Source of the DNA: Argopecten irradians
Taxonomy: Eukaryota > Mollusca > Bivalvia > Pectinida > Pectinidae
NCBI RefSeq assembly: GCF_041381155.1
Contig: NC_091137.1
Location: 19,203,655 to 19,267,654 of the forward strand
Direction of reading: 5' to 3'
Length of the DNA: 64,000 nt
Below, in pieces: positions 3,896-56,985 of the stretch. The translations under genes and the position numbers were made by a program. Every line of letters begins with the position of its first letter. Positions within the stretch are counted from its first letter, which is position 1. Below the pieces are notes generated by a model, which was not told the origin of the DNA, searched no databases, and saw only the letters and a program-made list of their open reading frames with translations.

Positions 3896-5076
3896 CTTCC
3901 AGTCTTGTTATGCGTTAAACATTGACATGTAACTTGATGATTTAGCTCCCCAAATGATTTAGCCCCAAAGCATATGTCGGCCTATAAGAGAGCCGAAATC
4001 TTGGGATCATATATTCCTGGTTTTGAATAAAGCGCCTTCAATCGCCGCCATGTTCAGTGACGTCGTGTTTTGTCGGATTCCGAATCGTATCACGAAGCTG
4101 ACGTTCGACACACCTGCACGTGGCGAGCCAGGTAACTAGCGTAAGCGCACATGTGTTTGTTTACGTTTTCTTTCTGGCTAATATGAGCAAATCATGCTGG
4201 TATATGTCCACAGATTGAGTATTTGAAACATCCAATTTACACATTGCCGCAAAATATAGTAATGTGCGAGCATTATTTCCTTTGTAGATAGAGTCTGCTG
4301 AGATCGACCACATGTTTTGTTTATGAAAAATTGTTGACATTACTTCGAGATTGTCGCGACGATGTTCGGAAGAGTTCGGAATGATTCGGCATCTTTCGAG
4401 TCTATTTTTCAAGCGTACACGTTAAAAAGATTTTTCACTTTTATAATTAAAAATACTTCCAGTGCTGCAACTTTATAAAAAGTGGTAAAATTAGAAAGTT
4501 TAAAACTCAGACAGACGGAGAAAAATATGTATAACACTTAAACAGTTTTCACTATGACAAAAGAGCGAAAGTTATAGACCATACAACTTTAAAAGTCATA
4601 CAGCCAACATTATATTCTTACCACAGGGATCTGAGAATTAGTTACAGATTAGTTAAAGATTACGTAACCATGGATCCACAAGAGTGCCATAAGACCATTT
4701 TTAGAAGTTTTAGAGGTCTAGATCTACATGTAGGCCCTACTATATACGAGAAGGGTGAAAGCTCCCAGACTCAAAATTTCTAAACCGCCTAGCTTTAGCG
4801 GCTATAAAAACACATTTCTAGCACATCTTCATAAAATGGTTATAAACGTTGGAAAGAGCAATAATTTTCCTTTCAAAATCATCCTACACATCTATACGAA
4901 GTGCCGTCACTAAGAAATACCAGCGCTATTTGCACAAACATTACTCTAAATTCTTCGCGGTCGTCGAATTAAATTTCATGATGTCTTTTTTCGATATAAT
5001 ATGCCTGAGCGAGGCCTCCGTAATCTCATTGATGGTTATGAAAAGTCTCTCTTCTCGGAACGTAAAAGGGGGTCCC
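3896..5076. other. no supported gene
   Basis: Unannotated sequence. It contains a locally GC-richer stretch near 4030-4140 with a GTGACGTC half-CRE, and scattered short open frames with no recognisable protein. Confidence 0.35.
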
Positions 5077-7116: not shown

Positions 7117-7756
7117 CATTACTGACATAATCATTCTTTGTTTACAGTCTGTATTTATTGGACACAACATAAAATGGAACTAAATAACGAAATGCCTTAA
7201 GTAACATTTTATCTACCGACTAAGGTGGACAGATTTGCCATAGATATACAATAAACATGACATATTGACACTATCATATCTTAGGATGACATATAATGTG
7301 TAAATATAGACGTAGCGTTGTGTATTCATTTATATTTTATATCAATTTATTCCAGTCATCATTACGTCTGTCATTGGGTAGAGTGTTTTTACCCACAATA
7401 TGGCCTTAACGGGCCTTAACGTGCATAACAGGTGCAATCGTTGAAGCAGAAGACGCTCACTTTTACGGGACACCTGGCTCCAGGATCATGAAAGAATCTT
7501 AGCCAATCATAAATTATGTAACTTTTTGTTACATCATCTTGGATTGGCTAAGTCTAAAATTACGACAGTTTTGGACTTAAATCTGTTGCATATTTTTCCT
7601 GAGGCCTGATATTTTCTTTTAAAAGTTCAAATTTAATAGTTTCATGTATACATATGTATTCTATTTGTATAACATACGCCATTTTATAAGAAACGCTTAT
7701 ATATAGTAAATGTATATTGAGATAAAAAAAATATGTTATCAGATTGGTGTACTTAC

Positions 7757-15779
<8,023 letters not shown>

Positions 15780-25044: not shown

Positions 25045-28000
25045 GTAAAAATAAAGTCAAATCCTAGAAATAGGCTTATTAATACTATTCAAAATTGGTC
25101 TTTAAGCTATGGCCGGTCTTTAGACACAAGAATTTGTTTAATGAAATAACCAATAATGTCGATGTTCGTAACTCTTTTAAGTGTATTAGAGATATTCTTA
25201 ATTGAACATGATGCATTTGAATTGTATAGGTATGTGTGGAGTGATAGAAGGAGAGATAGTCAGAATAAACTTCGTACTTAAAAATTATACAAGTCTCATC
25301 TATATTTATTTCGAGGCCCTATAGAAGGATCATCAGTTCATTTAGATGTAGTAACCTGTCTTTAGCAGTAGAAACCGGGTGATATAATAATTCCAAAGTC
25401 CCTTTGGATCAAAGAATTTGTACATATTGTTCATCAAATGTATTAGAAAATGAAAATCATTTTTAATTGTATGTGAGTTTTATTCCGACATAAGACATCA
25501 ATTGTTTTTACATATGATAAATCTTTTCGAAGGTTTTTATAGAATGAGAACTGAAAAGTTAATTTTTATTATGAATTTTGCCGATAGTAAAATTTCATCA
25601 TCAATTTTGTATAATATATTTCATAGGTGAAAAAGAACACAGATCTTAAAACATTAGGGGTGATAATGTATATTTGAATAAGAAAGTGCAGGCATCTGAA
25701 TTTTTTTATTAACAATCCAATTTTATTTTTATATGGAAAAATTGAATACATACTTGCAAATATAGGGCTGATTTATGTACATTCGTTTTAAATAAGCTTT
25801 GTCACAACCAGTATATGTTTTTTGTTTGTTTCACAAGCCGGTTCGGACATTTTTAATTGTCATATAGGTATGGAATGTTGCAACATATGTAAGAAAACGT
25901 GACATTGATCGATTGATTGACTACACATTGAAGTTTTTTTCCGAAACGAAATCTTTTGGAAATCGGATCGAACTTGTCTAAGAAATAAAGTAATAAAAGA
26001 AATGAATAACGTCATTATAGCCTCCAGGTTCACAACAAATAAAAGGGTGTTTTCTAGAGATTTATTTTCGATCTTTAAGCAAGCTCCCCTAACAAAATTA
26101 TGTTTACTTAATTGATAAGATAGATTTAAAATGAAGTTACTGATATTATCGAATCACAATTTATACATTTAAAAAAAGTTGATTTCGTAAAATTGTCATG
26201 TTAACTCAACAGGCAAACATATTTTTTGATGAATCAGAATTACACATAAAAAGAGCAAGCGTCATTGTTTCAGTGAATCATTGTTTTCTCTTTAAAGGAT
26301 GTTACCATCTTCCAATATTAGTTTGTTTTCGAATTTTACAATTGAATATTATTAATTTCTTTGCATAAATAAAAGTAGGGTTAGACAAAATTTCATGATC
26401 CGTTCTATCTCGTTATAATAGATAATAAAAGCTAGTTGTTAATAGCCATATTACGGGTGTTTTTAAAGAACTAATTCATATTTACAAATTGTGTAGCTGG
26501 TTTTATTTTATAATCATATTCTAAAGTCTATTCATTAATTATATTCTATAGTTAAGTCATTTTATAATCATATTCTAAAGTCTATTTGTTAATTTATTCT
26601 AGAGTTTTTTTAAACACGCAATTATATTTTAGAGTCTCGCTTTTCTAAAATTATATTTAAAAACTATATAACTGTCATATTATTTTATCATTATAATAGT
26701 TGCGATATCAAAGCTTTAATCATGTTTTGATTACGGTATTCTGACTTAAGTAAGTGTATGAATATTGTATTATATACTTTTTGATTATGATGTTTGCATT
26801 GAAATATTTTTTGTGAATTTATGTAAGCATTTGTTTGTATTACATACTAGTAGTATGGTCGTAAATATCTTGATTTTTTAAGCGTGTATTTGTTAAAAGA
26901 AGACTATTACAAAATGCGTTGTTCATATTCTACATTTAAGGTTATGAAATTATATGTAACATCATACCGTGACGGAGAACAGTCCGAGTTTCCTCAGACC
27001 CTGTCACCAGACAGACATCCCGACATGTTACCTAAATTTAAAATATGTGATATTCCGCGGGCTACAGACACAACAAGGAAGTATATGTGGTCGTCACCAC
27101 AGGGAGGTTTATAACGTTTTCTATGATGTTATGTCAAAATGCTTTAGTTTGAGTTACACAAGACCAGTCGGGTTAATTAATTTAAGTTATACGTGACATA
27201 TTTTTCATACACACGAATCAAGATGAACTTTTAATATTTTGTTTATCACCAAAAGTTACCAACATTTTGAGAATTAAGTACTTTCAATGTATAGGTTTTA
27301 ATTTTACATGAACAAATAAGAGCTGAAAGTGATTTTGACAGTACTGCCAAAAATCATTATATTTACATCTTTAATGAAGTGAAATGAGTACATACGGTCA
27401 AACCATGAAGCCAAATGGTGGTCTACAATTTCAGTTAACATTTTAACCGTTCTTTTACCTATGTGAAAGTGATTTCTGCAGATATATTTCCTACTTAGCA
27501 TACATAAGGCATAAAAACCAACGATCTTTCAATACATAATTTTTGTTTTGTAATTAACGTTTATAAGGTATCTGAAGCCATTTAAATGATTTTTACAGCT
27601 TAATTCATCAAATCTTATGGTTTTCAATAGATTACTGTAGAAAAAATAGTATGTCAAATTTTGCCCAGTTACGGCACATATAATTTTAAATGTTAACGGT
27701 ACCAGTACTACAGTAGTCTGAACAGTGACCTACTGCTTATGTACCTAGTACAGCACATTCGAATTGTAATGCAATGCATATTTGAGCAGGTTAGCACAAT
27801 GGAAAATACACATATTTGTAATGATTGCTTTATTGATGACAATTCAAAAGGAATCAGCGCAACCTTAACAAAAACGGGCACGTTAAATAGATAAATCATC
27901 TGGTTACTAGAATATTTAACAGTATACAAATATATTGAGCTTTAAGAACATGACTGTGATGGGTAGCTATCTTTAAATATGACCCTAAACTAATCAGAAT

Positions 28001-29769
28001 TCTAGAGTGCAATGCGATCGAGGTAAAAATAATCTGTGACAACACTAGAACTAAAAATATTGTCGTTGGATTTATCTCTAATAGGGTCATTAAATGCCCA
28101 CAACTTTCCTTAGCAAAATTTGAAAGGGTTTCTTAAAACCATCGTGTAACATAAAGAAAATAACTTATTCGATGTCCTTTAGATGATTTCGATGTTATGT
28201 CGTTATGTATGAGCAGCAAGTGATTTTCAAATAATGCTGCTAGTTATTCAATGGTCTACGACGGGTTACATTAGACGGACGCCGGAGTTATAACGAATAA
28301 TAAACATAACATGTGAATTATTAATTTAATATTTCAGAAGATGAGATATTTCTAGGAAAAGCAGTGGGGCATATAAACAGTGATTGTACATAAAATTTAT
28401 GATATCATGACTTTTATAAACCTTAATCATTATTGGAATTAGCAACTCAGTCTGTTTTATGAAGGGAAAAAGTCTTTGGATTATGTGTTGATTAAAATAT
28501 TTACCTTCCAATAAAATTTCCTTTTGTATTCATTTTGTTTTAGTTTCAAATTTAAATTATTGTATTTTTGTAAATTTAAATAATTTATTCGTAACTTCAT
28601 TGGGATTCAGAAGAGAGGTCGTGATAAACACTTTGTGGCAGCAATCTGCCAATATGGCATTCAAATTGTGTTACAACATTAACTTTGTCAGACGGAGTGG
28701 CGATATCGAACAGCTTTCATAGTCCCGTCTCACCTTTCTTTAAAAATATTGAGACCTTAAATGAGTGAATTTTTCTTATGAATAATCTTTGAAGCCAAGT
28801 CTTAGTAGTTTTTTTGTTAGAAAGCCTTGCCGTGCAAAAATTTTAAACTTCTAGACCGGCGTTTCATAATATTTCATTACATAAACATACCTGCCTTATA
28901 TTATTACACCTCTAATTTCCATCACAAAACTAGTTATACAATGTATAAAATTGTGCTGTATTTGGAATACAATTTTGTCACTATCCTCGAAAATCTTGAC
29001 GTCATGTAATTTTTATCTTTCATGTCCGAGCAATGAAATATACGCTCTCAAGGGTATTTTACACTAGTCTTATTCTGGTATATCATTGAGTAATTCTATA
29101 GTTATAGAATTGTACTATGTTTTTTGTGGATTCGCTAAATGAATAACGTATCTAAACTACAACCGAAAAAAATACAAAGTGATCTGGTACAATATGGCAA
29201 TCCACGGATATTTTCAATCCCCCGAAATGATTTTCAAGTTTTCAAGTTTTTCATGTTTCCAAACAACGGAATTAATTGTTCTCAGAATTTGATTTAATGG
29301 TATTAATAGTTATGCAACTTATATTTCATGGCACTGATAGTCAATGATAATCTGGCGTGATTATGTATATAACTTATATTACATTCCACTAATCATTATG
29401 TGCATTCACTGTAATTCAAGTTGTTGCTCTACTTTTAGCGAGGCTGAGATCATATCTGAGTATTAAAACAATTTTACTAAGTATCAATCTCCCAATATAG
29501 TTTATAGAATGCCTTCAACGTATTTGTTCTAAGAGTCAGCAAAATGATTATTCAAATTGAATAATTGATGATCCCTAATATTGAAAATTAAATTTTTAAG
29601 ATATTATATTTCATAAAATTGAATTTGCAGTATATGGAGATGTAAATTTGAATTTATATATTATTTTACTTTTAATGAGTTAATTAACAAAAATCTGAAG
29701 TTGTACACTCTTTTCATTGTATTTATCTTCATAAATATAGATAATCCTATTCAAGTTTTGATCCTTTAG
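25045..29769. other. AT-rich stretch, one coding-like island
   Basis: Strongly AT-rich DNA with no recognised protein except a less AT-rich island at about 26941-27114. I see no zinc-knuckle or RRM exons of eIF3g on either strand. Confidence 0.4.
26941..27114 (+). CDS. coding-like island, unknown
   Basis: After an AG at the end of CTACATTTAAG an open frame runs VMKLYVTSYRDGEQSEFPQT, LSPDRHPDMLPKFKICDIPR, ATDTTRKYMWSSPQGGL and stops. Its base composition and codon use stand out from the AT-rich surroundings, suggesting an exon or decayed gene piece. It does not join in phase to the exon candidate at 24962-25044. No family recognised. Confidence 0.3.
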   Translation, partial: VMKLYVTSYRDGEQSEFPQTLSPDRHPDMLPKFKICDIPRATDTTRKYMWSSPQGGL

Positions 29770-29845
29770 ATACTCGGAACGTTTGAAGTGCGACTATCGG
29801 TCGCATGGACATGTCATACTGTACTTCATTTCCTGTAACTGTGAA
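29770..29845 (+). CDS. candidate exon, unknown Cys/His-rich segment
   Basis: Good acceptor (CCTTTAG) and strong donor (GTAAGT). Read in the phase left by 24962-25044 it gives RYSERLKCDYRSHGHVILYF then ISCNCE, with three cysteines and two histidines. No stop and phase compatible, but no recognised domain and a 4.7-kb intervening gap. Low-confidence exon. Confidence 0.28.
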
Positions 29846-30369
29846 GTAAGTCCCTTTACAATACGGTTGTAACCACATTATTCCTCTTTACAAGTTGAGT
29901 GAAAAGGTCGTTCCGATTGAACGACACTCATACAGAAACTATAAAGTAAATTTATGGCGTTTTCAAAAAAATTTTATGAAAGAAAAGTAGTTGGATGATA
30001 TCGTCCTGAAAGTCCACCATGTCCTTTGGTTTTGTGGATATTGACAGGTCAGTATACTAATATGGGTGAGGGTATCTTTTCAAGCATTAAGTACATCTTT
30101 TTTGGTTTAACAATCCGTACTGGTCGTTGGGTTTTTCAGTGCTCATTTGATCATCTAGATTTTTCACTTTATCTGATATCATTTCATTTCCAAATTTCTG
30201 CTTTTGCAAAGTTATTGCAAGAATTTTGTTTTCTTTATTTTGTTAATTTTTTTTGTAGTTTTATTGTACAAATTAGCCGTCGTTGTATTGTGTGGATTAT
30301 GCACATGTGTGGCGGTGAATAATTTTCATCTGATTACTGCTTTTTAAATGATATTTGTATGCATGCCTC

Positions 30370-30521
30370 ATTTTTTTTTCTATTGGAGTTTGGGGTTTTT
30401 TTTTTATATTTTTTTTATTTTTTTTTTTGTTTTTTTTTTTTTTTTTTTTTGTTTGTGTTTTTTGTTTGTTTTTTATTTTTTTTTTTTTTTTTTTTTTTTA
30501 TTTTTTTTTTTTGTTGTTTTT

Positions 30522-30573
<52 letters not shown>

Positions 30574-31280
30574 TTTGGTGGGGTAGGAGGGAGGGGGGCG
30601 GTCGGTGGGTTTGGGAGTGGGGGGGGGAGGGGGGGGTGTAGTGGACGGGGGAAGGGGGGGGGGGGGAGGGGGTGGGGGGTGGTGGGGGGGGGGTGGGGAG
30701 GGTGGAGGTGGGGTTGGGTCGGGGAGGGGGGGGGGGTGGGGTGTTTGGTCGGGTGTTTGAGATTGTGGTGGTTATTTTTTTGTTTTTTTTTTTTTTTGTA
30801 GATTTGTACATTATTTGTTTTTTTTTTTGTTTTTATTTTTATATATAGTTTTTTATAGTCTTCATGTTTGTTTTTTTTTTTTTTTTTTTTTTGTGTTTTT
30901 TTTGTTTTTTTTTGTTTGGTTTTCGTTTGTCATTGTGCCTCTTATTTTTTTTTGTTGTGTGTTTGGGTAGGGTGGTTCTTTTTTTTTTCTTTTGTTTTTT
31001 TCTTTTTTTATTTTTTATCTTTTTTTGTTTTATTTTTTTTTATATTTTTCTATTTTTTATAATTTTTTATTTTATTAAGATTTGTTATTTTTTTCTTTTT
31101 ATATTTTGTGTTTTAGCTTGTGTGTTGTCATTTTACTTAATTATTTTTTTTAGTGTTTTTATCTTTAATTATTTTTTTAAGGTATATTTATTGTTGTTTT
31201 TTTTATTTTTATCTCTGTATTTTTGTTTTTTGTTTTTGTATTGTTATAATGCTTCAGTTTCATTTTTTAATTTATTTTTT
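30370..31280. repeat. T/G-only low-complexity block
   Basis: About 900 bp in which the plus strand is almost entirely T and G. Long T runs occupy 30370-30572 and 30775-31280, and a G-rich core (30573-30765) has many runs of five or more G. Long open frames here (poly-Phe, poly-Pro on the other strand) are artefacts of composition. The core would favour G-quadruplexes if real; base-calling or assembly error is a serious alternative. Confidence 0.85.
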
Positions 31281-31289
31281 TAACACAAT

Positions 31290-34002
31290 AACCTTCAAAT
31301 GATTCTTTTTGTACAATTATTATTAATTATTTTATTGAATAAGCTAATTGAATTCAAAGGATTTTCGGAACAGGTAATAGATCTTCAATATGCTATGGGT
31401 CATAATAAACACATTAAAGCATGTCCGATTCCAACATAAATAATACCATCAAGATTTGACATGGACATTGACGTTAATACAGTCGCCTACCTTGAGTTCT
31501 GAAGTTAATGAGTGTGACACCTAATGGTATGAACATATTTTAATTAAGATGTTTCACTAATAATTTTGATAATATGATACATAATAAAGTTGTAATCTGT
31601 CCCTTCTAAAAGGATTTAACATTAATTTTAATTTCTATTTCATTAAGTTTTTTATTTATATTATAATGTGGAGCTCGTATAATAAGGGTTGATTTGTATT
31701 TCTGTATTCCTGAATTTTGACCTTGTCTTAAATACACTGCGTGTAACTTGTCATTCAATCCTGTTTTAAAAAATAAACCATGGTTCGCATTGTATTTTTG
31801 ATAACAGCGATTTTTTAATTAATCAACGAGAGAAAAATAACAAATGATACCCTGGAATGAACTGGGTTCTATTGAAGGTTTAGGGAACGTCCATACCTGA
31901 AAATCGGCAAATGGTAAAATACATAGAAATAACTATATAGAGTATTAAAGCTACCAAAAGAAAAAAGAAAAATTCTTGATTAATTATTTAAAACTACTTT
32001 TCTTATTCGACAAAGTAAGAGTTCAAGATTTAAAAATGTCAAAAGATAAATATGCATCCTTGAACGGATTTCAAGAATAAAAAGTACCGTTTTGAACTAC
32101 ATTCATGTGTATTGAAATAAACATTATAGTAATTGGTTAACGAACATGATTTGTTTTTCGTCTGTATCGGTTTAAATTTGTTTATTACTATACTTGTGTG
32201 CTTAAACTTAATTGTGTCCATTAAGCAGTCAGTGTTGTAGTTACGAGATGTGTTAGTAATTCCCACCACATCCAGCAGTCACTTACACAAAGACTAAATA
32301 TGGTACTTTAATTATTGGAAAACAATAAAGTTGTAACTAGGGGTTAATTATGTTGAGTGGGGAAAGTTGTTTGTGTTTTTTATGATAAAATTACATAACA
32401 GTTTTTCTGTACATATTACATTATTCTATCATGATAGCTGCATTGAGGTTTTTCGGATATTTCGACCACAAAAGAAAATAAATTTTATTGATTTGTTTAT
32501 TTGAATAAGTACTAGGTATTTTTGAAGTTCATAACGAGACGCAGAATCGGGACGGCCTACTTCGAAGGCGAAATATTGTTAGAAGAAGGACTTACGATTG
32601 CAAAATATATGCTTTATATTTTATAGAATAAAATGTGACAATGCCATTTTTGACTTTATGAATCTTCTCCAACATCACAAAGCTTGATTTTTGAATATAC
32701 ATTAGAAACGTTTTCTCTATATCTTATGATAATTTTTCATAAAATAATTACAAAAAATGTTGAGAATGAAACAATTTTCCGTATTTTACTTTCAATTGTG
32801 TTCCGTCGACACAAAAATATGGTGTCATCCTCGGGTTAAACTGGGGATGGAGGTAAGGAGAAGCAGGGTTTTTTCAGATGATCTGTTGTTTCTTCAATCG
32901 GATTTTTTCAATAACCGGAATACCTGCAATAACATGGGTATGAGGTGTAGGCCTTAGTATATCTTACCCAAGTACTGTACTGGTTCACGTGACCTTTCTG
33001 TAAGTTGGCAAGGATAAGTCCGCTGCCATAGTTACCATACGCCTCAGGCTCTGGCCGAACACAACCACAACAGGCCACAAGGCCACGGCAAATTATTACT
33101 CCCTCTCATCTAAAAAAGACCAACTTGTATTTCAATTTCTTATCCACAGACAATCATTCATGTGTTGACATATTTTGACTCAAAACTTTTGTGCCTCTTT
33201 TTCGACAAAATTATTTAATTGCTTTGACGAACTCAATGTAAACTCCATGTAAACTCAATGTAAACTAAATATATACCTTCATTTCAAAGCAATATTCATA
33301 TTTTAGCTCCTTTATAATTTTATTTCTGTTGTGTCAGTGTAATTTGTCGAAATGACCACTGTGCTTACTTGCTCAATGTAAAGTAAAAGGTTTGATTGCA
33401 TTAAAATAAGTAGAATATATTGGACCTCATGAATAATTTCTTTAACACCAGTTTATGTTAGTCTAAGTTTGCTTTGTAAGTCGAATTTATACAACAGGTA
33501 AACAAAAATGACATATAAAGTATAATATCTTAGGTTTGACACCATAACAATACGTACGTCTTTCCTTATACATGCAGATAAACAAATTTTGGAATCTTAC
33601 CTTTTCTTACAAGTTCCTGAAAACTATTCACGGACAAAAAGGTTGATTATATTTATGTGTGAAAACCCGGATGTTAGGCAAATCCTCTAACGAGTCTCTC
33701 TATTGGCTGGTATTTCACACCATTACTGATGAAATTACGCCACTGTGAGCGGAAGTTACTAGAAGCGTAAAATGGCCAGAGGAAATAATACCGTTAACAA
33801 GCCATCACGCGAGTGTTTCTAGTTACCTGTTGGCGCAATGTAGCAGGTCATGATAAATGGTCTATAATAACGGTCATTATCAGGTGTTTGCAAGTCTTTG
33901 AATATCTTTCTACATGTGCAAAGGCGACTAATTGAAAATATTTTTCTCTATAACACCATTTGAAATTATTGATTTATTTAAGACAATAAAACATTGACTT
34001 TT
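31290..34002. other. no supported gene
   Basis: AT-rich sequence without recognisable coding exons. A short less AT-rich segment near 32800-32960 and another near 33660-33830 could be regulatory or exon pieces, but nothing supports a specific call. Confidence 0.35.
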
Positions 34003-34433
34003 AAGCCCATCATCTGATAATGGGCTATTCAAATAATTTTTTGGTCCGTCCTTCCGTCCGGTAACAATATCGCTTTTTCAGAAAGTACTGAAGGGTTCAT
34101 TCTAAAATTTATATGTAGGTTCCCTTAGGGCCCTAGCTGTGCATATTTTGGGACCGATCGGTCAACAAGATGGCCGCCAGGTAGCCATCTCGGATTTTGA
34201 TATTTAAAGTTTGTTATCGCTATTTCTCAAAAAGGAATGAAGACATCATTCTCAAATTTCATATGTAGGTTCCACTAAGGCCCTAGTTGCGCATATTGTG
34301 TTTTAAGACCGATCCATCCATCATCTTGAGTTTTGATAGTTGAAATTTGAAAAAAGAGAAAAGATCCATCTGACATTTATCAGATATAGATCAATCTTTG
34401 GTGGGCGCCAAGATCCCTCTGGGATCTCTTGTT
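34003..34433 (+). repeat. AGCCCATC-type dispersed repeat, complete copy
   Basis: Begins AGCCCATCATCTGATAATGG, itself a hairpin (AGCCCAT...ATGGGCT), and ends GGTGGGCGCCAAGATCCCTC, TGGGATCTCTTGTTA. Between are about two units with CAGAAAGTACTGAAGGG, TATGTAGGTTCCCTTAGGGC, GACCGATCGGTCAACAAGAT and GGCCGCCAGG. The same family occurs inverted and amplified at 39785-40815, and as fragments at 13430 and 22573. No protein encoded. Confidence 0.75.
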
Positions 34434-36667
34434 ATTTATTGCTTTATCTGTTCTTAATACGTGACTGTGCACAATTCTGACAGACAACAGATGCAGAAAT
34501 CACCGGAATTTGCCGTTGTTTCCTGACCAGAATATATATTAGATGTGAAACCCCTTATGTGTCTTCTATGCTTCTTGGATTTTTATTCTTACACATTAAC
34601 AGTTCCAAGTAGGAGCATAACATTGATATGTAATTAACGTTCAATAGTCTTCCGGTTTTGAATATGCTTTTAGGTCTTTATAAAATTGTGGCAAACCCTA
34701 TTAAAGCATTGTAATAAGAAGATTGGTAATTTATCAAGCTATATATAAATAATTACGCCGTTAACTCAACCAATCAGAAGTGACGTTACCAACGACGACG
34801 CCATTGCTTTCCTTTAGGGACCGATAAAGTAAATGTTAAAGCCAATGAGCATGCTCGTTACTAGCAAAACTGAATTATATTCTAATAAGGTTCTCTAACA
34901 TTATCCCTATTTAGGGAAAGGACTTCATATAAGTTGGAAAACTTGTGTCCAATCCCATTGTACATAAAATATAGCAATAAAGATATGTTTAAATCTATAT
35001 AATACTATGTTCGAAGTTTGGTTTAGATTGGACTGATATTATAGAGATGCTGGTCTACATAATGTAAACACAAACTTTAATGTATACGTGGTTCTGCCAC
35101 GTAGAATTCCCTAAGTAGCGCCATTACTGTGTTGACTACTATTAAGTGATGTGGCAGGTTTGAGGCTTTAAACCGGATTTAAAGCAAAATTAGCAAATGT
35201 GAATATGAGGACAATAAATCATCATCCCTGTGTTAACGGTTTAATGTCTTAGTGACCTAGCCTATACAGACTCTGTTTGGATTGTAACCTTCCAAACAAT
35301 GGCTTAGTTCATATATAATTAGGAATTTTTAGTGATTTTTAAAGGTATATGTATCATAACAGGCGATTTTTTACGATGTTTTTTTTTACATTAATCTATT
35401 GAAAACTCGTAAGTGGTGATGCATTAAGAGGTAAATCATTTCAATCGCATGGGTATGAGTAATTTACAATTACAACGACAAATTCTATGCAGTCATAGTT
35501 CTTGTTTTTATTCTTTGTGTAAGATGATACTAACACATCTACAGAAGTCACTTTATTATTACTAATATCACTGTATAAAGGAGGAAAATCAAGTTTGTAA
35601 TTGATCTATGATTCAAATGTAAAAACAACATAAAGAAATGTCAACATTGACAAAATATCGATATATTGTGTACAGTTTCCATTAGTGAACCCATGTGAAT
35701 AACGCATGACTATCATACTGATCGTATTTGGAATAGACACGTTTAAATTAACTATTACTAAGCTTTTAAAAAGACAAAATGACAATGGATTCAAATCAAA
35801 CCACAAGATTTGTTGTTTTATTGTTTTATTAGTAGCTAAATCTACAATCATGCATAACGTCCAACTGTATAAATATGAACGCTTAAAGATATTAACCAAG
35901 AAAGCCTTTTGATATCAACACATGAATAAAAATGTAATTGTATATCAAAATAAAGTTACTATTCGATTAAGGCGACAATAAAAAGAACCATTCACTTCAG
36001 AATACATACATAATACATGTGTATAGTAAATACACACTGATATATAACTAACACGCGGGTAGCTCAATAGTATAAAAATATAACCCTTTCACATGTGTGA
36101 AGTATAAAAATATTGCAAAATATCTCAATGTTTGATAAAATGTATACAAAACTAAAATCTGATAAGTATTGATGAGGTAACATGTGAAATAGCTCTACAT
36201 CCTGTCTGGCTCTGATAACCTATCCTAATTACCTAGCCATTCAATTATATTAATGTAGTGTCTTCCTATTTATGCCAAATCAGTCCTTTAAAAGAAAATT
36301 AGTTGACAATTCTCCCGTAAAGTAAAAAGCTCTTATTATGACATGGCATACAGCGCATCTTATTCAGCTCATTGTATACTTACTCCCTTATAGAATCAAT
36401 TGGCCTACAGCGTCAAATAAAATCTTCTAATCATCAATTACTTCACAGAGTATAACACTTCAAAATATATGTTTATGTTTAGAGACAAAAACTTATTGCT
36501 CATTTTTTTGTACAATGCTAATTTTCTAATTGTGCTTCACAGTCATTAGTCATTATGTTATATCGATACCACACATTAAAACAAATCAAAAAGCTGTATT
36601 GCTGCCAAATTAAAAATGCCAGTAGTTGCTGCCATCATTATGTGCTCCTTTTGCCAGTATATCTACT
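34434..36667. other. no supported gene; presumed 3' flank of the membrane-protein gene
   Basis: Contains dispersed repeat C copy 2 (34750-34875), a small hairpin TACGTGG/CCACGTA near 35082-35100, and otherwise AT-rich DNA. The part just left of 36668 should be the 3' UTR of the minus-strand membrane-protein gene. Confidence 0.4.
34750..34875. repeat. dispersed repeat C, copy 2
   Basis: Partner of 16625-16745, sharing AATCAGAAG, GACGTTACCAACG, CCTTTAGGG-like, GATAAAGTAAA, AAGCCAATGAGCATGCTCGT and AGCAAAACTGAATT blocks. Function and class unknown. Confidence 0.6.
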
Positions 36668-39600
36668 TCAGTCCTGTTTTACTGGTACTAGTTTGCTCAG
36701 CTGCTGTCTGGCACATCTAACAAGTTGTTTTGGGTCTGATCCGAGAACATCAATCATGAGCGTGATAAATACTGTGGCCATTCCAAAGGCGATGTGCCAC
36801 ACGGTGAAGGTGGAGGTTAAGATCTGGTTCAGGCCCATGGTGATCAGCAGCAGGAGGCAACCCTACAAATTCAACAAATAGGATACAGGTTTAGAAATTT
36901 AACAAGGAAGGTACATGTCTGTAAATTCAACATACAAGATACAGTCCTGTAACATCAACAAATACTAAAGGATACAGGCTTGTAAAATCAATAACAGATT
37001 ACAGGTCTGTAAAATCAATAACAGATTAATTTACAGGTCTGTAAAATGAACAAACAGGGTTTAGGTTTTTATTTCTTTAGATCAACAAACAAGGCCATTC
37101 CAATTTGATTTCTTGTTCTTCGGATTTTGGGATTTTAAAATAGGAGCGAGCGAGCGAAATTTTTTTAATTCTAAAAATATTTTGAAAGCGGAAAAAATTG
37201 GAGCGAGCGAATATTTTCACAATATTTTTTATTAGACTTTTATGTTTATTTCTTGAAATAACAATTACTAGTAATAACCGAGTTTTTATGTTAAAATTTG
37301 AGTTTTGCTGTTTTCTTCAGTGTTTTCAACATTCATAACTGTATCAAAGATGTAAAAACAAGGAAGTCTAATGTTAAGGTATTTGTGCAGCTATTGAACA
37401 TATGCTATTACACAAAATGCTTTCAATGCATGATATACATGAATTTCAATTTTAAAACAAATCTTGACAATTTTAACATTAAATAGCAATGTTTAATAAC
37501 AGTCGGGCAAGGATGGCTAAAGTTGGTAAAAATGGTATGAATGTATCCAGTATTATTTCTTATGAAATAGAAAAATAAAATCTCTCGTCAAAATCTGTCT
37601 GCGTACGAAGAAATTAATTTAAAGTATGGGAATTCTAAAACGTCCTCCCGGCTCACTATGTCTGTGGTTACATTTCCACGCAGCCTCGCTTTCAATGCTT
37701 TCAACTTTTCTTTACTTTAATGGTCAGAACTGGGAAACTAAGCAGAACTTGACCGTCCTATTAATATGTGAGAACTTTTGGAAGGCCAATGAACGCATTT
37801 AGACTGGTTTTCTTTGCCCGACTATTCACTTGAACTTCTTGTCAATAATTTCAATAATTAATTTGCTGTTGACAGAGATATCAGCAAAAACCAACAAACT
37901 AATAGAAACAATCAGGGATTAGCATTAATGGAAAATATTTAAACCAATATAACCTCACCTGACATGTACATTCTTTCTTAGTTGTCACATAATATTGTAC
38001 GGAACTGACTATTTTTGTTTAGCAAGTTTCTAACTAAGCTGCTCATACTTTGAATGAGATAATGCATATGTTTATAAATGTATAACTACAACAGTGTAAA
38101 CAACAACATAATTCATTTTAATCACATGAATTCATTGTCTCTAAAAAGTATATTTTTAAAAAAATATATGGACAGTACGGCTCAAAAGTTTCACATGTAT
38201 ATCAGCATTCATATCAAAAAGAAATATTCTAAATTTATTATTTATGATTTTCTCATGAAACGCTTTGAGTTAATCAAACGCAAACATTCATATAACCTAT
38301 CAACACAAAAATGAAGGCAAATGTATGTTATATTGTCGTAGAAAGTAACACTAAAGTAACACTAAATTTGGATCTCAGTAAAATGTGTAATTTACTACCG
38401 ATGTTAATTTGACCGAATAGCAGACGAATCGTCACCTAGCTAGCTGTTACTAAGTCATGCAGTCAAAACATGTTTGCAAATGCAAACTATGTTGGCAGCA
38501 CGTGTCAAAATTCACATTGACCAGGTCTTAAGATATAAGGCAACTAAGGTGTTAATTAATTAGCGATTGCCTTCAAATAATGGACATGCTTGATTACCGT
38601 TATTCGTTCGTACGTCGGCCAGTCAAATCACCTGTCATGGTCGCCATTTTTAAAGTGAGATCGAACGCAAAGTCTTTTAAAAGAGTTGCAGACATCGGCA
38701 AAAACAGACTGAAATTGCAATTTTGGGACACGTCCTATTAAAAAGTATACGTCCCTCAGTCTCTACCTCAAAGTACCACTCTGTCTGCACGTGGTGGCGG
38801 AAAAACTTGACATTTCTGTTGTTGTAAAGGTTTGCAAGACGCTTGCGGGTTTGAAGACACAATGTACGAATAATTCAAACATCTGAGTGACCAGGAAATG
38901 GTGACTAGTAAAAATGAACCCTATGAAAATTTGCCCGGGTTCGTCAGATTCCTGGACAAAAAAATGAGGAGCGGTTAAAAAATTATTTTATTTTTATTTC
39001 GTTTTCGGAAAATAGGAGCGGGAAATCCGACGAACGAGAAATCAAATTGGAATGGCCCAAGGTACAAAAATATGTACATGTCTGTATAATCAACAAACAG
39101 GATATAGTTTTGTAAAATGAACAGATCTGTAATAGGACACTTCTGTTAGGAAGGCCCCCACTCATGCCTAGATGATATACATGTCTCTAAAAGACTGGAT
39201 GGAATAGCATTGTCTACAGTAACATTGATGCATACAACAAAATGGAAGCGGATGAGTCTATGAACACTTACCAAACCATGGCTAAGAAGAACTGCTTTCT
39301 TGTCATCTTCCATTAAGAAATTTGAAGCTCTGCCTGACATAATTGCTAGTGTGATGAAACCTATTCCCATCAGTCTGGCAAAGTGAGCATGAGCAGAGTC
39401 CAGCGTCACAGAGGAAGCCTACAATATCATATACAATGTGTCACAGAGGAAGCCTACAATATCATATACAATGTGTCACAGAGGAAGCCTACAATATCAT
39501 ATACAATGTACATGTGTCACAGAGGAAACCTACAGTAACATATACAAAGTGTCACGGAGAAAGCCTACAATATCACATGCAATGTGTCACAGAGGAAACC

Positions 39601-42600
39601 TACAATATCATATACAAAGTGTCACAGAAGAAGCCTACAATATCATACATTATAAAGTGTCACGGAGGAAGCCTATATATATAGCTACAATATCATATAT
39701 AAAGGGTTACGGGGGAAGCCTACAATATCATATACAAAGTGTCACAGTGGAAAGCAAAAATATCATATACAAATTATAGTGTGTCACAGAGGGATCTTGG
39801 CGCCCACCAAAGAATGATCTATATCTGACAATGGAAAGAGGGATCTTTTCTCTACTTTTCAAATTATTACTACATATTGCTACATATGAAATTTGAGAAA
39901 TATCCCTTCAGCACTTTCTAAGACATATAACAGTTACAAACTTCAACTATCAAAATCCAAGATAGCTACCGGTCGGCCATCTTGTTGACCGATTGGTCCA
40001 AAAAAAGCAATATGCACAACTAAGGTCCTAGGGGAACCTACATATAAAATTTGAGACAGATCACTTCAGTACTTTCTGAGAAATAGCAGTAATAAACTTC
40101 AATTATCAAAATCAAAGATTGTGGCATGGCCTGTCTGCAGTCTTGTTGACTGATCAGTCCCAAAATGTAATATGCACAACTAGGGCCCTAGGGCAACCCT
40201 TATATAAAATAAAATTTGAGACAGATTGCTTCAGTTCTTTCTGAAAAATAGTGGTTACAAACTTTAATTATCAAAATCGAAGATGGCGGCCTGTCGACCA
40301 TCTTATTGACCAATATCTTGTTGACCGATCGGTTCCAAAATGCAATATGCACAACTAGATCCCTAGGAGAACCTGCACATGAAATTTGAGACAGATTGCT
40401 TCGGTACTTTCTGCGAAATAGCTAATAAACTTCAATTGTCAAAATCCAAGATGGTGGCCTGTCAGCCATCGTGTTGAATTATCAGTCCCAAAATGCAATA
40501 TGCACCAATAGGGCCCTAGGGGAACCTACATATAAAATCTGAGAAGGATCCCTTTGGTACTTTCTGAGAAATAGCTAAAAATTCAACTATCAAAATCCAA
40601 ATGGCGGCCTGTCGGCCATCGTGTTGACCGATTCCCAAAATGCAATATCACAACTAATAGGGAACCTAATGGTTAATTTGAGAGAGATCCCTTTAGTTCT
40701 TTCTGAGAAGTAGCGGTGATGCTTTAACTATCAAAATCCAAGATGGCTGCCTGGTGGCCATCTTGTTGACCGATCAGTCCCAAAATGCAATATGCACAAC
40801 TATGTTATAGTGCTATCTTATTGAAGCATTTTGCAACAGCACATCCCATCTAGTCACATTATACTGACAACTGATAAACTAGTGAATTAAACTAATGATT
40901 CTGACAGAGCCGCATAGAAATACTGTACATTTTGGTGTTATAATACTTACCACTTGACAAGTATAGATTTTTGATGGGAAGACAATTGCTACAATGCCAA
41001 AGATAAACCAGATGACAAAGTCCAGTCGAAGGTGAGTGTTGCGACAAGATGTTGACACCTCAACATAACCACCCCAGTCTTTTTGTCTGAGAGAGTGGAA
41101 CACCAACAGACCAAACCAAACCAGGAAAACATGAACGGCCAAGTTCTGCATCTGTAAAACACCACAGTTACAAGTTTTACCACGTGTATAACCTAGTTCT
41201 GCATTTTTTTTCTAAGTTGTTAAGTATTTCCATCATGAGTCTATATTTTAAAGTTTTTTTATGGAATCCATGAAAAAACCCATTTTGTTTCAGTTTTGAG
41301 ATAAAACTCAAAGACATGATGGGGTTGCAAAATTTGTCTGTGAATACTTAATAAAAATGATTTTATCATAGAAAAAACATTGCCTTATCTAGCTACAGTA
41401 AAACATGTGTATAACAAACTATAACAAAGTAATTCTGTTGATTTCCCAGAGCTTTATTACTGTGTTTACCATGTTTTACTGTAATATGCAGGTAATCATT
41501 TAAGCATTGATGTTACTATTTTTAACTTCATAGGCCTAGGGGTGTGAAAGAAATTTTGTTTGCAAACTGTGTGAATCCGTATAGCGGATTCTCAAAAAAG
41601 TTTGCAAACATAATTTCTTTCATAACCCGATGAAGTTAAAAAATAGTTACATCAATGCTTATAATTAATTTTTAGACTACTTGATAACATAAAATACGTT
41701 TAAACGTATGAATCCATTGATTTTCCAATGGATTATCTTTTCTAAATCAATACGCAATGTTGACATCGCTATTGTAACGTCATAGTTACAGAGGATTCCG
41801 CTTATTTGAATAAGTCATTTTCCAGAAGAAAATATGCAAATAACCTGAGTATTCGAATAGGCAGAGATGGCATTTTGCATTTCCGTTTGACCCCACACAT
41901 ATGTACATTATATGTGAACAGGCAAATAGATATTGTTTCGTTTACTTGATAAATACGTAAATTATTTACACTTAAAACGAACAACAAGTAAGTATTTTCG
42001 AAGTTGTAAATTGATTTTAATTGTTTAATAACAAAAAATATTCCAATATTAGATTCTTGTTTACGTTAAATTGACATGTGAATCTTTGAGAAAAAGCCAA
42101 ACAATCAATATCAAAGCAATAACTAAACAGGATTGAATTTGTGTCTGCAATTCGAACCTAAATAATAAACAAATTTACGTACATTTGTCTGGCAAAATGA
42201 ACTTAGGATCGTGATTAAACTTTAAAGTGCCGATCAACTTGGCCTAGCAGTGTACATGTTGTTTTGACACATGTGTATGAATTCAATAAATGGCGGCAGG
42301 TGATGAAGCCATGCGTTCACTTGACCTAAAGGTGTTTTGAGAATTCTTCCTGTATTGTTGATCGATACGGCGAATAGCTTGATAACATTTCAGAAATTAA
42401 TTCATATTCAAGTAGCAATGAAACAATGTAGCAAGTATCTTTTGTATCCTACATACGAAACTTGCGGTAGTCATTGCACGCCGACTTTGCATGCTTTTAT
42501 GTCTCGCTCAACGAGATGCTTGATACGCATATGTCTGTCGTAGTCAACAAGACTCTGGTTGAACGAGACTACTCATTAATGTCGATTGTTGTAAGGAAGC

Positions 42601-44309
42601 ATGGTATCTCCAACTGATCGCGAAATAAGGTACGTTACGTTAATAAATAAACATATTTGAAAGTGCAAATGCTTTAATTAGATGTTTGAGTCAGTGATTA
42701 TAATAAAGTAATGATCTACCGCTGATGATGTAAATCGTAACAGCGTTGAATACCTTTGCAGGTTCATGCATAAAATAACAAGTCATAGGCCTACGGTAAC
42801 ATTAATCTGTCACCATGATTTCTAGTAAAATCGAAGTATCTTGAAACATATATCGGCGAATTTCGCTAAAAATATATTGCAAAATTGAAAAATATTCGAT
42901 TTTATTTTTAGAATTTCACAAATATTTTATTCAAATAACCGGAGGTCACGTAAAAGTCTATTCAAATACATGGAGTTGAAAAACAATGATAAAGAAGGAA
43001 ACAATCGGGACTGCAGAATTCTATGCAAATAACCGAAATAGTCAAATAACCGTTATTCGATTATGTGGAGTCCTCTGTAGGTCAGATTTTCCAAAAATAA
43101 TCTGCCAATCAGAGAGTTGGATTTAGTATGAAAACAAATAAAAATTAATTATACACATATATTTTACATCTGATAGTACTTACATTTGGATTCACCATAG
43201 CATTTCCCTTCATCATCGAAGCAACATAGACCATCAATGTACATCCCATACACTGCAATGAAGGATTGATAACAGTTTATTTAGGATCTTGAATGAGAGT
43301 TCATTTCATACTAGATTTTAAGAAATACGTTTCATAAGGCCACACCAAATAAATCACTTGTTTTTCGAGAACTAGGGACAAAAAGTGAGAGCGACTTGGG
43401 TGAGCGAAATTAAAAAAAAAAATTAATAAAAGATCCATTTTCAGATTTTCAGACGCGAAGAGATCCATTATTGTCGTGCGGGCGGTATTTTTCGGCATTT
43501 TTTGAAAACATTTCAGAATAATATTGAATCAGTTATAGTATATTACATATTAATTTTTCAGCCTGTCATTGATAATAATAAAGATAAATAGCAATATTAT
43601 CTAAAACAAATCAAAATTTAATGATTCAACTGAGCCCTTCTCATTCATATCAAATTTTAATCAAAATGAAACAAAACGGGGCTAGTTCTGGGTCAAAACT
43701 TTTACTTGCAGGTCCTATGACGTTCTGATTCGTAGGGAAAGATCTAAATTTCACTGATATTTAGTGAAAAATGCCAATTGTATCAGTATTTCAATCCAAT
43801 TATACCCTTTTTTGTGACAGAAAACAATTATCTTCAGATATTTAACTTGTCTTCTTTTCTTAATTTATTTCTCGTGCAGTAATTTTTTTTACCTTTATGA
43901 TATATCATCAAATTCCCTTATTGATCCATTAAAATGTGAATGTGACAGTTTTGTCTTTGACTTGTTAATCATTATACAATGCTTTTCTTATTTACTGACG
44001 CTGGATTGGGTCAACTGCAGATCAAGACAACCAGCACAATCAGTATATCTCGCATATATCACTATGTTTGGAGGTCCTGAAATCCCACAGGTGTGGCTGC
44101 ATGAGTGCATGTGCATTGTTTTCCACTCCTACTACAATTAGCATATAAATATCAAGCACTTACGAGTGTCATTGACCAGAGGTGGCTGCTATGGACGGTG
44201 GTATCTGAACTTTTCATAGTCAATAAGAAAGTTGCACCAATAGCAATATCATTTATTCCAATGCTGCGGATTTCTTGAAGATGGAGAGAACATCTGGCTC
44301 CACATTTTC
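36668..44309 (-). CDS. multi-pass membrane protein, C-terminal five exons, family unknown
   Basis: Exons in coding order: 44309-44164, 43252-43184, 41151-40951, 39418-39272 and 36862-36668 (stop TGA). Four joins are phase 0 with good GT/AG sites; the first visible exon is entered after one base of a codon, so at least one exon lies upstream and was not found. The 251 visible residues hold about six or seven hydrophobic segments, e.g. IGINDIAIGATFLLT, CMGCTLMVYVASMMKG, NLAVHVFLVWFGLLVFHSL, DFVIWFIFGIVAIVFP, MGIGFITLAIMSG, VWHIAFGMATVFITLMIDVL. A conserved-looking AHAHFARLMG precedes the fifth segment, and the tail is basic (KQLVRCARQQLSKLV). It is an integral membrane protein, but I do not recognise the family. 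Introns carry four mobile or fold-back elements and a minisatellite covering the 39418 acceptor. Confidence 0.85.
37091..39059. mobile_element. long-TIR DNA element, about 2 kb
   Basis: Left end GGCCATTCCAATTTGATTTC; the right end read inward is the same 20 bases, and similarity continues for about 90 bases with indels (GTTC, CGGATTT, CTCC-type blocks, GAGCG). CAA flanks both ends, a possible 3-bp target duplication. No transposase is visible. It sits in the last intron of the membrane-protein gene. Superfamily undecided. Confidence 0.7.
39403..39784 (-). repeat. 35-bp minisatellite spanning a splice acceptor
   Basis: About ten tandem copies of a 35-bp unit, some with insertions. The copy at the left end includes the first 16 bases of the coding exon 39272-39418 and its acceptor. 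Read on the minus strand each unit is GATATTGTAG followed by GCTTCCTCTGTGACAC, so the acceptor AG and exon start are repeated into the intron. The array ends at an AGCCCATC-type repeat, overlapping at CAGAG. Confidence 0.9.
39785..40815 (-). repeat. AGCCCATC-type dispersed repeat, inverted, about six units
   Basis: Begins with the reverse complement of the family's right end (GGGATCTTGGCGCCCACC) and continues as about six units of 155-175 bp sharing CGGCCATCTTGTTGACCGAT, CCAAAATGCAATATGCACAA, CTAGGGCCCTAGGGGAACC, TTTGAGACAGAT, TACTTTCTGAGAAATAGC and TATCAAAATCCAAGATGG. It fills part of the intron between exons 41151-40951 and 39418-39272. Confidence 0.8.
41502..41660. repeat. 159-bp fold-back palindrome
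   Basis: Outer arms AAGCATTGATGTTACTATTT and the complementary end AAATAGTTACATCAATGCTT. The pairing continues inward through TTAACTTCAT, GAAAGAAATT and GTTTGCAAACT to a loop stem GAATCCGTATAGCGGATTC. The arms pair almost throughout (about 70 bases). No target duplication seen. It is probably a fold-back MITE in an intron. Confidence 0.75.
41789..43077. mobile_element. TA-flanked Tc1/mariner (pogo-like) non-autonomous element
   Basis: A 1289-bp segment flanked by TA (41787-41788 and 43078-43079). Inward termini are CAGAGGATTCCGCTTATTTG and CAGAGGACTCCACATAATCG, both continuing with AATAA. TA target duplication plus CAGNGGA-type ends with ATAATCGAATAA fits pogo/Tigger-like Tc1/mariner elements. 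No transposase open frame remains or was ever present. It lies in an intron of the membrane-protein gene. Confidence 0.7.
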
Positions 44310-45600
44310 CTGCAAAAAAAAAAAAAAAAAAATACGACTTTAAATCATCATTAGAAAATATATTTATTTGTTCACTACTGTATAGGAAAAAAATAACCTC
44401 CCTTGAGAAGCTGAAAACCAAGATATTTCGACCAATCTTCAATCATTTATATCGAGTCGTCAATTTTACCATGAATTATAAAATTGTCGCATTTTCGATT
44501 GGTTTACGTTGTATTTCGTCTTAATATGTCGTTAAAGCCAAACATTGAAGTAAGAATACAATAAGAATTTGTCATTTGTGGATTATGGAAAGCAGTATTC
44601 CAGTTTGGGTTCGAAAGAGTGCTTTTCATATCGTGTGCTTTTATAGTAGATGTTACTTATGAATTAATTTTTAATTATAATAATTGATAAATACGCTATT
44701 AAAAAAACCCTAGTGATCTGATTTGCGATATTATTTTTGTGCAAGTCCCATTTTTAGTGAAAACGATTTGTAGTTTAGGTCCTAACTATTTGCCTTGCGG
44801 CGAATAATTGTGGTGTATTTTGTTGCCTAATTTTGGTTAAGAGGATTATGAAAGTTTTTTTTTTCAGGGTGAAATTTCATATTTAGCCAGTCTTTTCCAA
44901 AAATGCTCCAGATCTTTTTGTAGTTTTAATTTTCGTCTTTGTTGTTTATGTTTTTCACATATTCCCCTACTCCATTAAAATGTGCGAATACATCTTAGTG
45001 TCTTACTGCCGATGGAAATCGTTTTTATATGACACGCAGAATTGGGTCAAACATTTCCTTGACCAGGACAATCAGTACTATCTCACTATGTTTGAGTTTT
45101 AAGTACTACTGTTTGGGTGCATGTGATAAGAAAGTTCTACTATCCAATTGTGTGTGTTGCATGCCGTACGTAGTTTCATTTGTATTGTAGGCTGTTTGTG
45201 TGGACTTGCAAAGGCTTTGGCACCATCCATGATAATAATGTCTGTCTGTTTTAGTTTCATAAATTATTTTTGCGAGGATTTCTTAAGATGTGAAACACAA
45301 ATGGCAACATTACAAAAAATCTGGATGATCTGATAGCCTATATCATCAAGTTGTAAATATGTTCTTGTTTTACCAGACATTGTGGCGCTTGTAATGATAT
45401 AGTTCCATGAGTACCTCCCATGATAAGCTGAAAACCAAGATATTTCGACCATTCTTCAAATACTTTATTATCGTGTTTCTGTCAATTTTACATTTCTATG
45501 AATTATTTACAAAAGTCTCGCATTTATCGATTGGTTTACGTTTTAATTTCGTCTTAATATGTCGTTATAAAGGCCAAACATTGAAGTAAGCTATTACCAA
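43870..45600. repeat. diverged tandem duplication of about 1 kb
   Basis: Sequence around exon 44309-44164 recurs about 1015 bp to the right. 44400-44575 matches 45418-45600 strongly (GCTGAAAACCAAGATATTTC, GATTGGTTTACGTT, TTCGTCTTAATATGTCGTTA, CCAAACATTGAAGTAAG). 43935-44120 matches 44965-45125 more weakly (CCATTAAAATGTG, ATTGGGTCAA, CACTATGTTTG). The part of the second copy that should hold the exon is decayed. Confidence 0.7.
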
Positions 45601-55139: not shown

Positions 55140-56470
55140 CAATATCACCTCATGTTGTCAATGTAGCCTTGAAATCATAAAATAGATAGATACTTTTCCA
55201 ATTGAACTATCCAGTTCATTTTTAATACAATTTAAGTTCTTAGCACAAACAACACACCCTCTGGTAAGTTGTTCCGCACCGCTGCAGTTTACAATGTTAC
55301 ATTGTTGAGGATATACCTTCCGTTGGTTATTTTTTTGTAAGTCGCTGTCATATCTCTTGCTGTCTCCTGAAACGCTAATGTTGGTAACTGTAGATTATTT
55401 TAGTCTGTCTATGTATGAAAGGTTTTTAATTTCAGCGACCATTACTCCTAAGTCTTTTCCACTTGTGATTTCTTTAGGGTTGTATCAGCAAGGTCATACG
55501 TGCAATCATTAACACTTGTCCTTCCCAAATGCAGGTGTACACATTTCCCAGGATGCAATTTCAAGGGGCCATGTATTACACCATGCTACCATATTATGGA
55601 GATCTTCTTGTAGAATGGTTTGATCATTTTCTTCAATGATAACTCTGAATACTTTTGTGTCATCTGCGAACAGGTATGTCTCAGACAACTCGCTGATTCC
55701 TATCGTTTAAGAAGTCCTCGATCCATTTAACGACAGTGTGATGTATTCCATATGCTTTTAGTTTTTTAAGTAATCTTTCGTGTGGTACGGTATCAAACGC
55801 CTTCTGAAAATTGGTATAGATAGTCAATAGATTTTCCATTATCTAGTGCTCTGGTCCATTGGTCAAGAACTGTAAGGAGTTGAAGAGTTGGAGTTGTTGA
55901 TCTTCCCGATATAAAACCATATTGTTTGTTACTGAACAGGGAGTTGGCTTTCATATGATTTACCATGTTTTGCCGAACAAACGTTTCTATTATTTTGCAC
56001 ACAACTGATGTAAGACTGACGGGCCTGTAATTTCCAGCGAGTGATTTGTTCCTTTTTTTTGTAGATTGTACATGTGCCTCTGTCCATCCTGTTGGTACCA
56101 TTCCCGTTTCTATAGACTGATTGTATGATAGTGTTAATGGCGATGCAATTGTATTTGCCAGTTCCTTGAGAAGTCGTGGGTAAACTCCGTCTGGCCCCGG
56201 GGATTTATTAACATTAAGATTTAATAATGATTTCTGTGTTTCTTCATTTGTAAATACAAAATTTCCCATCTCTGTTATTTTTTGTGTGTCGAATATCAGT
56301 AATATCACCATTGGGCTCTGACACAAATACACTACAGAAAAACTGTGAAAGAGTTTCAGCTTTGTCACAATCTCTGTCAGTTTTCGCCAATGTTTCGTTG
56401 CTGTAATCCGTGTGGAGATCATCTATAGCTGATTTAGTTTTTGGCTTTCTATTTATATATTTCCAGGTTT
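55140..56470 (-). mobile_element. CR1-like LINE fragment, reverse transcriptase
   Basis: On the minus strand an open frame at 56422-55793 includes NLNVNKSPGPDGVYPRLLKE, AGNYRPVSLTSVVCKIIE and QYGFISGRSTTPTLQLLTV, the first half of a non-LTR reverse transcriptase. After a frame change it continues FQKAFDTVPHERLLKKLKAY then GIHHTVVKWIEDFLNDRNQR, and after another change ETYLFADDTKVFR, the F/YADD catalytic motif. Between the last two about 50-60 residues with the GIPQGSVLGP-type motif are deleted. NKSPGPDG plus LFADDTK favours the CR1/L2 side of Jockey-type LINEs. Endonuclease is absent; the copy is dead and 5'-truncated. Confidence 0.85.
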
Positions 56471-56589
56471 AATTTCGGGTCTTCCTTCGACCTATTGGCT
56501 AATTAATTCACACTCAAATTTTCTTACGTAAAAATCGCGTTCGTTTTCTTACGGCATTTGAAGCTCGTCTGTAAACTCATTGTATATTT

Positions 56590-56981
56590 GTATAAGGTGG
56601 GTGTTTCCGATTTGATCAATATTTGTATATTGTGGGCGTCTCCGATTTAACCTTTATTTGAATATTGTAGGTGTCTCCCATTTGACCTAGATTTGTATAT
56701 TGTGAGCGTCTCCGATTTGACCTTGATTTGTTTATTGCGGGGATCTCCGATTTAACCTATATTTGTATATTGTGGATGTCTCCGATTTGACCTAGATTTG
56801 TATATTGTGGGTGTCTCCGATTTTACCTAAATTTGTATATTGTGGGCGTCTCCGATTTGACCTATATTTGTATATTGTGAGTGCCTCCGATTTGACCTAT
56901 ATTTGTATAATGTGGGTGTCTCCGATTTAACCTATATTTGTATATATATTGTAGGTGTCTCCGATTTGACATCGATTTGTA
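56590..56981 (+). repeat. 35-bp minisatellite, about 11 copies
   Basis: Unit ATTTGTATATTGTGGGTGTC then TCCGATTTGACCTAG, strict 35-bp period (e.g. 56761 to 56796). It abuts the TTAA MITE at 56986. Confidence 0.9.
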
Positions 56982-56985
56982 TTAA

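Follow-up and report, generated by a model that had tools for sequence, protein, structure and literature searches.

What becomes of splicing when an intron carries many copies of its own 3' splice site, each with the first bases of the following exon attached? The question is raised by a minus-strand gene in a 64,000-nucleotide stretch of genomic DNA (contig NC_091137.1, positions 19,203,655 to 19,267,654, assembly GCF_041381155.1; hereafter the window, whose coordinates are used unless stated otherwise), in which a 35-bp minisatellite appears to run across the boundary between an intron and a coding exon. A preliminary description, made from the letters alone, had proposed that the repeated acceptors might act as decoys. 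We find that an inverted paralog has a second, much longer array at the same boundary, and we think it probable that the array is a passenger: a boundary-spanning minisatellite seeded by the exon boundary itself, whose last acceptor is the dominant one, with some leakage to the neighbouring copies.

A 35-bp array at a predicted exon boundary

Four coding exons can be read on the minus strand, and exons further upstream are possible. The gene and the array consist of the following features:

43184..43252, minus strand: upstream coding exon, 23 codons, preceded by GCAG and followed by GTAAGT; the paralog has a counterpart
40951..41151, minus strand: coding exon A, 67 codons, donor GTAAGT, phase 0
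39774..39801, minus strand: decayed distal unit or units of the 35-bp array, recognized by eye, with the lowest-matching AG
39405..39773, minus strand: 35-bp minisatellite with consensus unit GCTTCCTCTGTGACACATTGTATATGATATTGTAG, eight upstream unit acceptors and the true one
39419..39439, minus strand: inferred true 3' splice site, formed by the last unit's 21 intron bases, which end in TAG and fit frame and donor
39405..39418, minus strand: first 14 coding bases of exon B, part of the last unit of the array
39272..39418, minus strand: coding exon B, 49 codons (147 nt), donor GTAAGT
36671..36862, minus strand: last coding exon C, 64 codons, followed directly by TGA

The junctions between exons A, B and C are all in phase 0, and the introns flanking exon B are 1532 and 2409 nt long, which counts as long by the usual standard. 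The 180-residue conceptual protein encoded by exons A to C had no Pfam match at E ≤ 10, and its matches in PDB were at chance level only (E = 0.15 and 0.37).

Read on the minus strand, each unit consists of 21 intron bases with a TAG end followed by 14 exon bases, and the last unit is made up of the inferred true acceptor and the exact first 14 bases of exon B (GCTTCCTCTGTGAC). Tandem Repeats Finder (TRF) reported the 35-bp array at 39405-39675 with a score of 363, and a row with a 111-bp period over the same array extending to 39773. By comparison, among 200 dinucleotide shuffles of a 2.4-kb part of the window (38401-40800) only three yielded any row scoring at least 50, the highest score being 54. 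A unit caller that accepts units only if they have an AG found eight acceptors upstream of the true one, at spacings of 35, 50, 35, 35, 35, 41, 35 and 35 nt. The three acceptors nearest to the exon, the true one among them, are identical from position –21 to +14, whereas the outer copies, which can be followed by eye to about 39800, are decayed. With units 35, 41 or 50 nt apart, the arrangement is not a NAGNAG or other short tandem acceptor, in which AGs 3-9 nt apart compete at the second step.

These results bear out the preliminary description of a 35-bp unit that holds a splice acceptor and an exon start and is repeated in tandem upstream of exon 39418-39272, so that many near-identical acceptors precede the true one. 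Its estimate of about ten copies is fair if the decayed ones are added to the eight that were called. It also placed the first 16 coding bases of the exon within the unit, which is correct for 14 exact bases but not for 16, because base 15 is a mismatch. The exon-derived part of the consensus unit includes the motif TGAC, with its A located 22 nt upstream of where the AG ends, and this or a similar motif is retained in 7 of the 8 units in the window and in 34 of 43 units in the paralog. We take TGAC to be branch-site-like, in which case most units could serve as near-complete acceptors.

An inverted paralog carries a longer array

By a whole-genome DNA search (845.8 Mb in 1508 contigs) we located a second array at the same exon boundary, on the same contig at a distance of 144 kb, in an inverted segmental duplication. 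Window positions 26560-44556 correspond to 19092-19110 kb of this contig (C4), in blocks of 72-90% identity; the stretch that we fetched stops at the edge of the matching part, so the duplication may extend further. The two genes are similar in coding sequence–the encoded amino acid differs at 3 of 49 codons in exon B, at 3 of 64 codons in exon C, and at 5 of the first 59 codons in exon A–and the first 14 bases of exon B are identical. Close to its end, the paralog's exon A' contains a TAA and a frame change, which could be the mark of a pseudogene or a sequencing error.

The paralog has 43 upstream unit acceptors compared to 8 in the window, an approximately five-fold difference that points to instability of copy number over evolutionary time. 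The window has 7 distinct units and the paralog 18, and the exon-proximal unit alone is found unaltered in both. Because both genes carry the array at the same boundary, the array is older than the duplication and has changed in length since. All the acceptor spacings in the paralog are 35 or 41 nt, so that none of the units lying between the outermost and the innermost is without an AG. This is nevertheless no evidence of selection on the acceptor, because the 39 paralog units that are exactly 35 bases long are invariant at 20 of their 35 positions.

Matches on two other contigs were also considered. Positions 64001-67865 of contig C216 (L033) match window positions 43761-40013; over the first 3050 columns of the alignment there are 28 mismatches and 44 gap openings. 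Gaps break up exon A, and the contig ends in the intron repeats, short of the 35-bp array. It has the look of an allelic or duplicate contig rich in errors. A match on contig C5 (L008/L012) sits in a different, 46-bp array, and was rejected by eye as a relative.

Upstream acceptors would lead to early stop codons

The preliminary description predicted that splicing to the next acceptor upstream would lead to an in-frame TGA, and that upstream choices in general would give early stops. The nearest upstream acceptor does give 8 codons and then TGA, and the general prediction holds throughout the array: when joined to exon A, all ten upstream AGs within 380 nt of the true acceptor run into an in-frame stop after 3-15 codons, as do all of the upstream AGs in the paralog (50/50 giving an early stop). 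Since the stop reached from the nearest acceptor ends 155 nt upstream of the junction of exons B and C, nonsense-mediated decay of such a transcript would be expected. According to part of the account in PMC10946897, AGs that come early in the polypyrimidine tract are selected against, which makes the apparent tolerance of so many AGs at this locus notable.

If upstream copies capture the spliceosome and yield stop-containing RNA, the array could be a decoy or poison-acceptor array whose length, varying among alleles, tunes expression. The early stops in both genes and the five-fold difference in copy number are in its favor, and there are parallels elsewhere. In the human gene ABCA7, a variable number tandem repeat (VNTR) with a splice donor within its unit is described, in passages of PMC5954066, as causing retention of a single unit and a length-linked change in splicing. 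In abalone, a 27-bp intronic minisatellite varies in copy number among individuals (PMC6905558, in part), so intronic arrays of similar size do vary within a mollusc species. We consider decoy function unlikely even so: the in-frame stop is inherent in the sequence of the unit and needs no selection, constraint on the acceptor AG cannot be demonstrated above that on other unit positions, and the most similar arrays, the amphioxus "mirages" discussed below, are reported in the relevant parts of PMC3087553 and PMC3902484 not to disturb splicing. No observation requires a decoy. A stricter form of the idea, which we regard as distinctly improbable, is a length-tunable rheostat in which each 35-bp copy adds a competent, stop-giving acceptor and the output of the gene drops stepwise. 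If it were true, the 8 and 43 decoys of the two paralogs would form a natural dose series, with the longer array silencing its gene.

Units farther from the exon are less similar to the boundary

In both genes, the similarity of a unit to the true boundary declines as its distance from the exon increases. The rank correlation is rho = –0.75 in the window (n = 8; 85 of 5000 shuffles were as low) and rho = –0.57 in the paralog (n = 43; 0 of 5000 shuffles). The trend is also seen in the exon part of the unit alone (17 of 5000 shuffles in the window, 38 of 5000 in the paralog) and in the intron part alone in the paralog (0 of 5000). This gradient fits copies that were seeded at, or homogenized with, a constant boundary, though it is not proof of the direction of copying.

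The opposite direction would mean that the start of the exon is derived from the array–that is, that an intronic minisatellite reached the exon and its last unit replaced an older acceptor and the first codons (ASSV). The pattern of the unit continues unchanged for 14 bases into the exon, and the rest of the intron is mostly repeat, as this history would have it. We judge it to be quite unlikely, because similarity to the boundary peaks beside the exon and decays outward, as expected if the boundary was the source, and because the first 14 exon bases are the same in both paralogs.

A passenger array as the most probable explanation

On the reading that we favor, in which the array is a passenger, a stretch of 21 intron and 14 exon bases would have been duplicated in tandem, placing extra, near-complete acceptors in the intron. 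Duplications on the acceptor side may be tolerated because the last copy always adjoins the intact exon and its donor. Between introns of this length the last acceptor, the only one that gives the normal 147-nt exon and adjoins all of its exonic sequence, would be likely to dominate; passages of a transcriptome-wide study (PMC9225289) describe a preference for upstream acceptors that weakens if the introns on both sides of the exon are long. Neighboring acceptors are probably used at a low level, and the resulting 35-nt insertions, which contain a stop, would be removed by nonsense-mediated decay. Meanwhile the true boundary would be held by coding and splicing constraint as the distal units drift and turn over, leaving the array most like its source at the exon end. 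Such an array probably does little harm.

Several points weigh against this explanation. In the same part of PMC9225289, acceptor pairs that are at least 20 nt apart favor the upstream site overall, a preference that is merely reduced under exon definition, and the last copy need not therefore be the dominant one. The human ABCA7 repeat shows that a VNTR at an exon boundary can alter splicing (PMC5954066, in part), and an intronic minisatellite in C. elegans is linked, in a passage of PMC4039745, to genes with multiple alternative splicing. The TAA and the frame change in exon A' occur in the paralog that has the longer array, and could reflect harm, although a sequence error is possible. The gradient is weak for the intron part of the unit alone in the window (489 of 5000 shuffles), and the shuffles ignore relatedness among units. 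Lastly, retention of the AG in the paralog is not telling when 20 of 35 positions are invariant.

That the copies are an artefact, false or miscounted, is very improbable indeed, because two diverged paralogs on one 53-Mb contig both have the array, with different private variants, even though contig C216 marks an error-rich part of the assembly so that the exact copy number could be wrong, and even though one amphioxus mirage was, according to a passage of PMC3087553, aberrantly assembled in the genome draft.

Other repeats in the gene, the window and the genome

Two further groups of repeats lie in the introns that flank exon B:

39880..40802, minus strand: diverged tandem repeats with units of about 140-150 bp, unrelated to the 35-bp array and occupying much of the A-B intron
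36863..37060, minus strand: degenerate 27-34-bp acceptor-like repeats, immediately 5' of exon C

Repeats of the second group adjoin the acceptor of exon C in both paralogs (window 36863-37060; L009:9407-9516). Several of them end in TTACAG, and they form a second, decayed acceptor-like array within one gene. Exon C apparently lies outside the 27-34-bp unit, with no clear copying of the exon in either paralog. The paralog has two more arrays. About 44 copies of a 43-bp unit adjoin the donor of exon A' in its intron (L009:5417-7307), where the counterpart in the window looks by eye to be single-copy, and there are about 72 copies of a 15-bp unit at L009:3716-4757, whose reverse complement, GTAAGTATTGTCATT, resembles a 5' splice site, antisense to the gene.

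Tandem repeats are common in this genome. We sampled 200 kb as 20 evenly spaced 10-kb stretches of contigs C1-C3 (35.2% GC), of which 8.6% is covered by arrays with at least 4 copies of a 10-200-bp unit, so some arrays will fall on splice sites by chance alone. In a crude screen of 53 arrays in 303 kb, 5 of the 106 array edges had an exon-like open stretch running from an acceptor in the array to a donor, against a rate of 1.7% at 4000 random positions; the gene described here and its paralog account for two of the five. This weak screen of 106 edges gave no sign of a general tendency of arrays to abut exons.

Elsewhere in the window, a gene for a DDX39/UAP56-like helicase lies at 7746-15785 on the minus strand, in matched pieces that are 57-89% identical to human DDX39B; by eye, none of the TRF-listed minisatellites overlaps its matched exons. 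A 157-bp tandem repeat at 22809-23730 has the same first 30 bases as one on another contig (L025:4119-4816), indicating a dispersed family. There is another 35-bp array at 56583-56982, with 11 copies of a unit, TATATTTGTATATTGTGGGTGTCTCCGATTTGACC, that is unrelated in sequence; by eye, it adjoins a reverse-transcriptase-like open reading frame at 55793-56422. Rfam found nothing in the window at gathering scores, and a search of the genome for COX1 gave no match.

Comparison with known systems

Among the papers listed in searches of the literature, none had a title or consulted passage that describes a boundary-spanning array in molluscs or other invertebrates, and no such array was found in the portions consulted of PMC4732748, PMC12783039 (earthworm) and PMC6905558 (abalone). 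The earthworm case is nonetheless similar in one respect: passages of PMC12783039 describe minisatellite arrays in metallothionein intron 1 that differ between tandem paralogs, again in an invertebrate. Unlike the array here, those repeats lie inside the intron, and in these passages no splice boundary is reported in the unit. Human segmental duplicates offer another likeness, since parts of PMC2812944 describe boundary repeats of about 30 bp that differ between recent paralogs.

The ABCA7 repeat in human is a 25-bp VNTR in intron 18 whose unit begins with the donor of exon 18; in the relevant passages of PMC5954066, one unit can be retained and array length affects splicing. As in the array described here, the unit contains a splice site and a shift by one unit causes a frameshift and a stop. 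Unlike it, the ABCA7 VNTR is on the donor side, begins with the donor GT, and has no exon bases in its unit.

The closest match is to the mirages of amphioxus, minisatellite-like duplications of intron/exon boundaries that are described in parts of PMC3087553 and PMC3902484 from Adh3, the globin genes BflGb6 and BflGb9, and TnC. The globin mirages have units with splice signals, and two haplotypes have 6 and 3 units (PMC3087553); similar repeats occur in PGBD5 (PMC3902484). Mirage units span the splice boundary, joining an intron end to an exon start, often keep their AG and GT signals, and vary in number. Two of these properties are found here: in both paralogs the array spans an exon/intron boundary, as placed by reading frame and donor, and its units retain potential splice signals, with 8 acceptors ahead of the true one in the window and 43 in the paralog. 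A difference is that the array here is shared by two inverted paralogs whose copy numbers are far apart. In addition, the genome, at 846 Mb and with 35.2% GC in the 200-kb sample, is probably not that of amphioxus. We conclude that it is a further case of the mirage type, probably outside the cephalochordates, and if the genome is from outside that group, as is likely, the known range of mirages is widened.

The closest known cases are split as to consequence. The passages on mirages report them to be silent–the Adh3 data and the authors' own RT-PCR (reverse transcription PCR) suggested that regular splicing is not interfered with (PMC3087553), and no aberrant mRNA came from the Adh and TnC mirages (PMC3902484)–whereas those on ABCA7 report activity. 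Splicing was examined in the mirages, the length effect was measured in ABCA7, and retention in transcripts or removal as new introns has RNA support in the human segmental duplicates (PMC2812944, in part); the array here was analyzed as DNA sequence. What it adds to these systems is a pair of paralogs that provide a natural experiment on the spliceosome's choice between acceptors of identical sequence. Because three neighboring sites do not differ in any of 35 bases, the only differences left are those of position, exon context and copy number. The array also suggests that minisatellite turnover can begin at, and stay similar to, a functional splice site, which is a proposed route to new introns.

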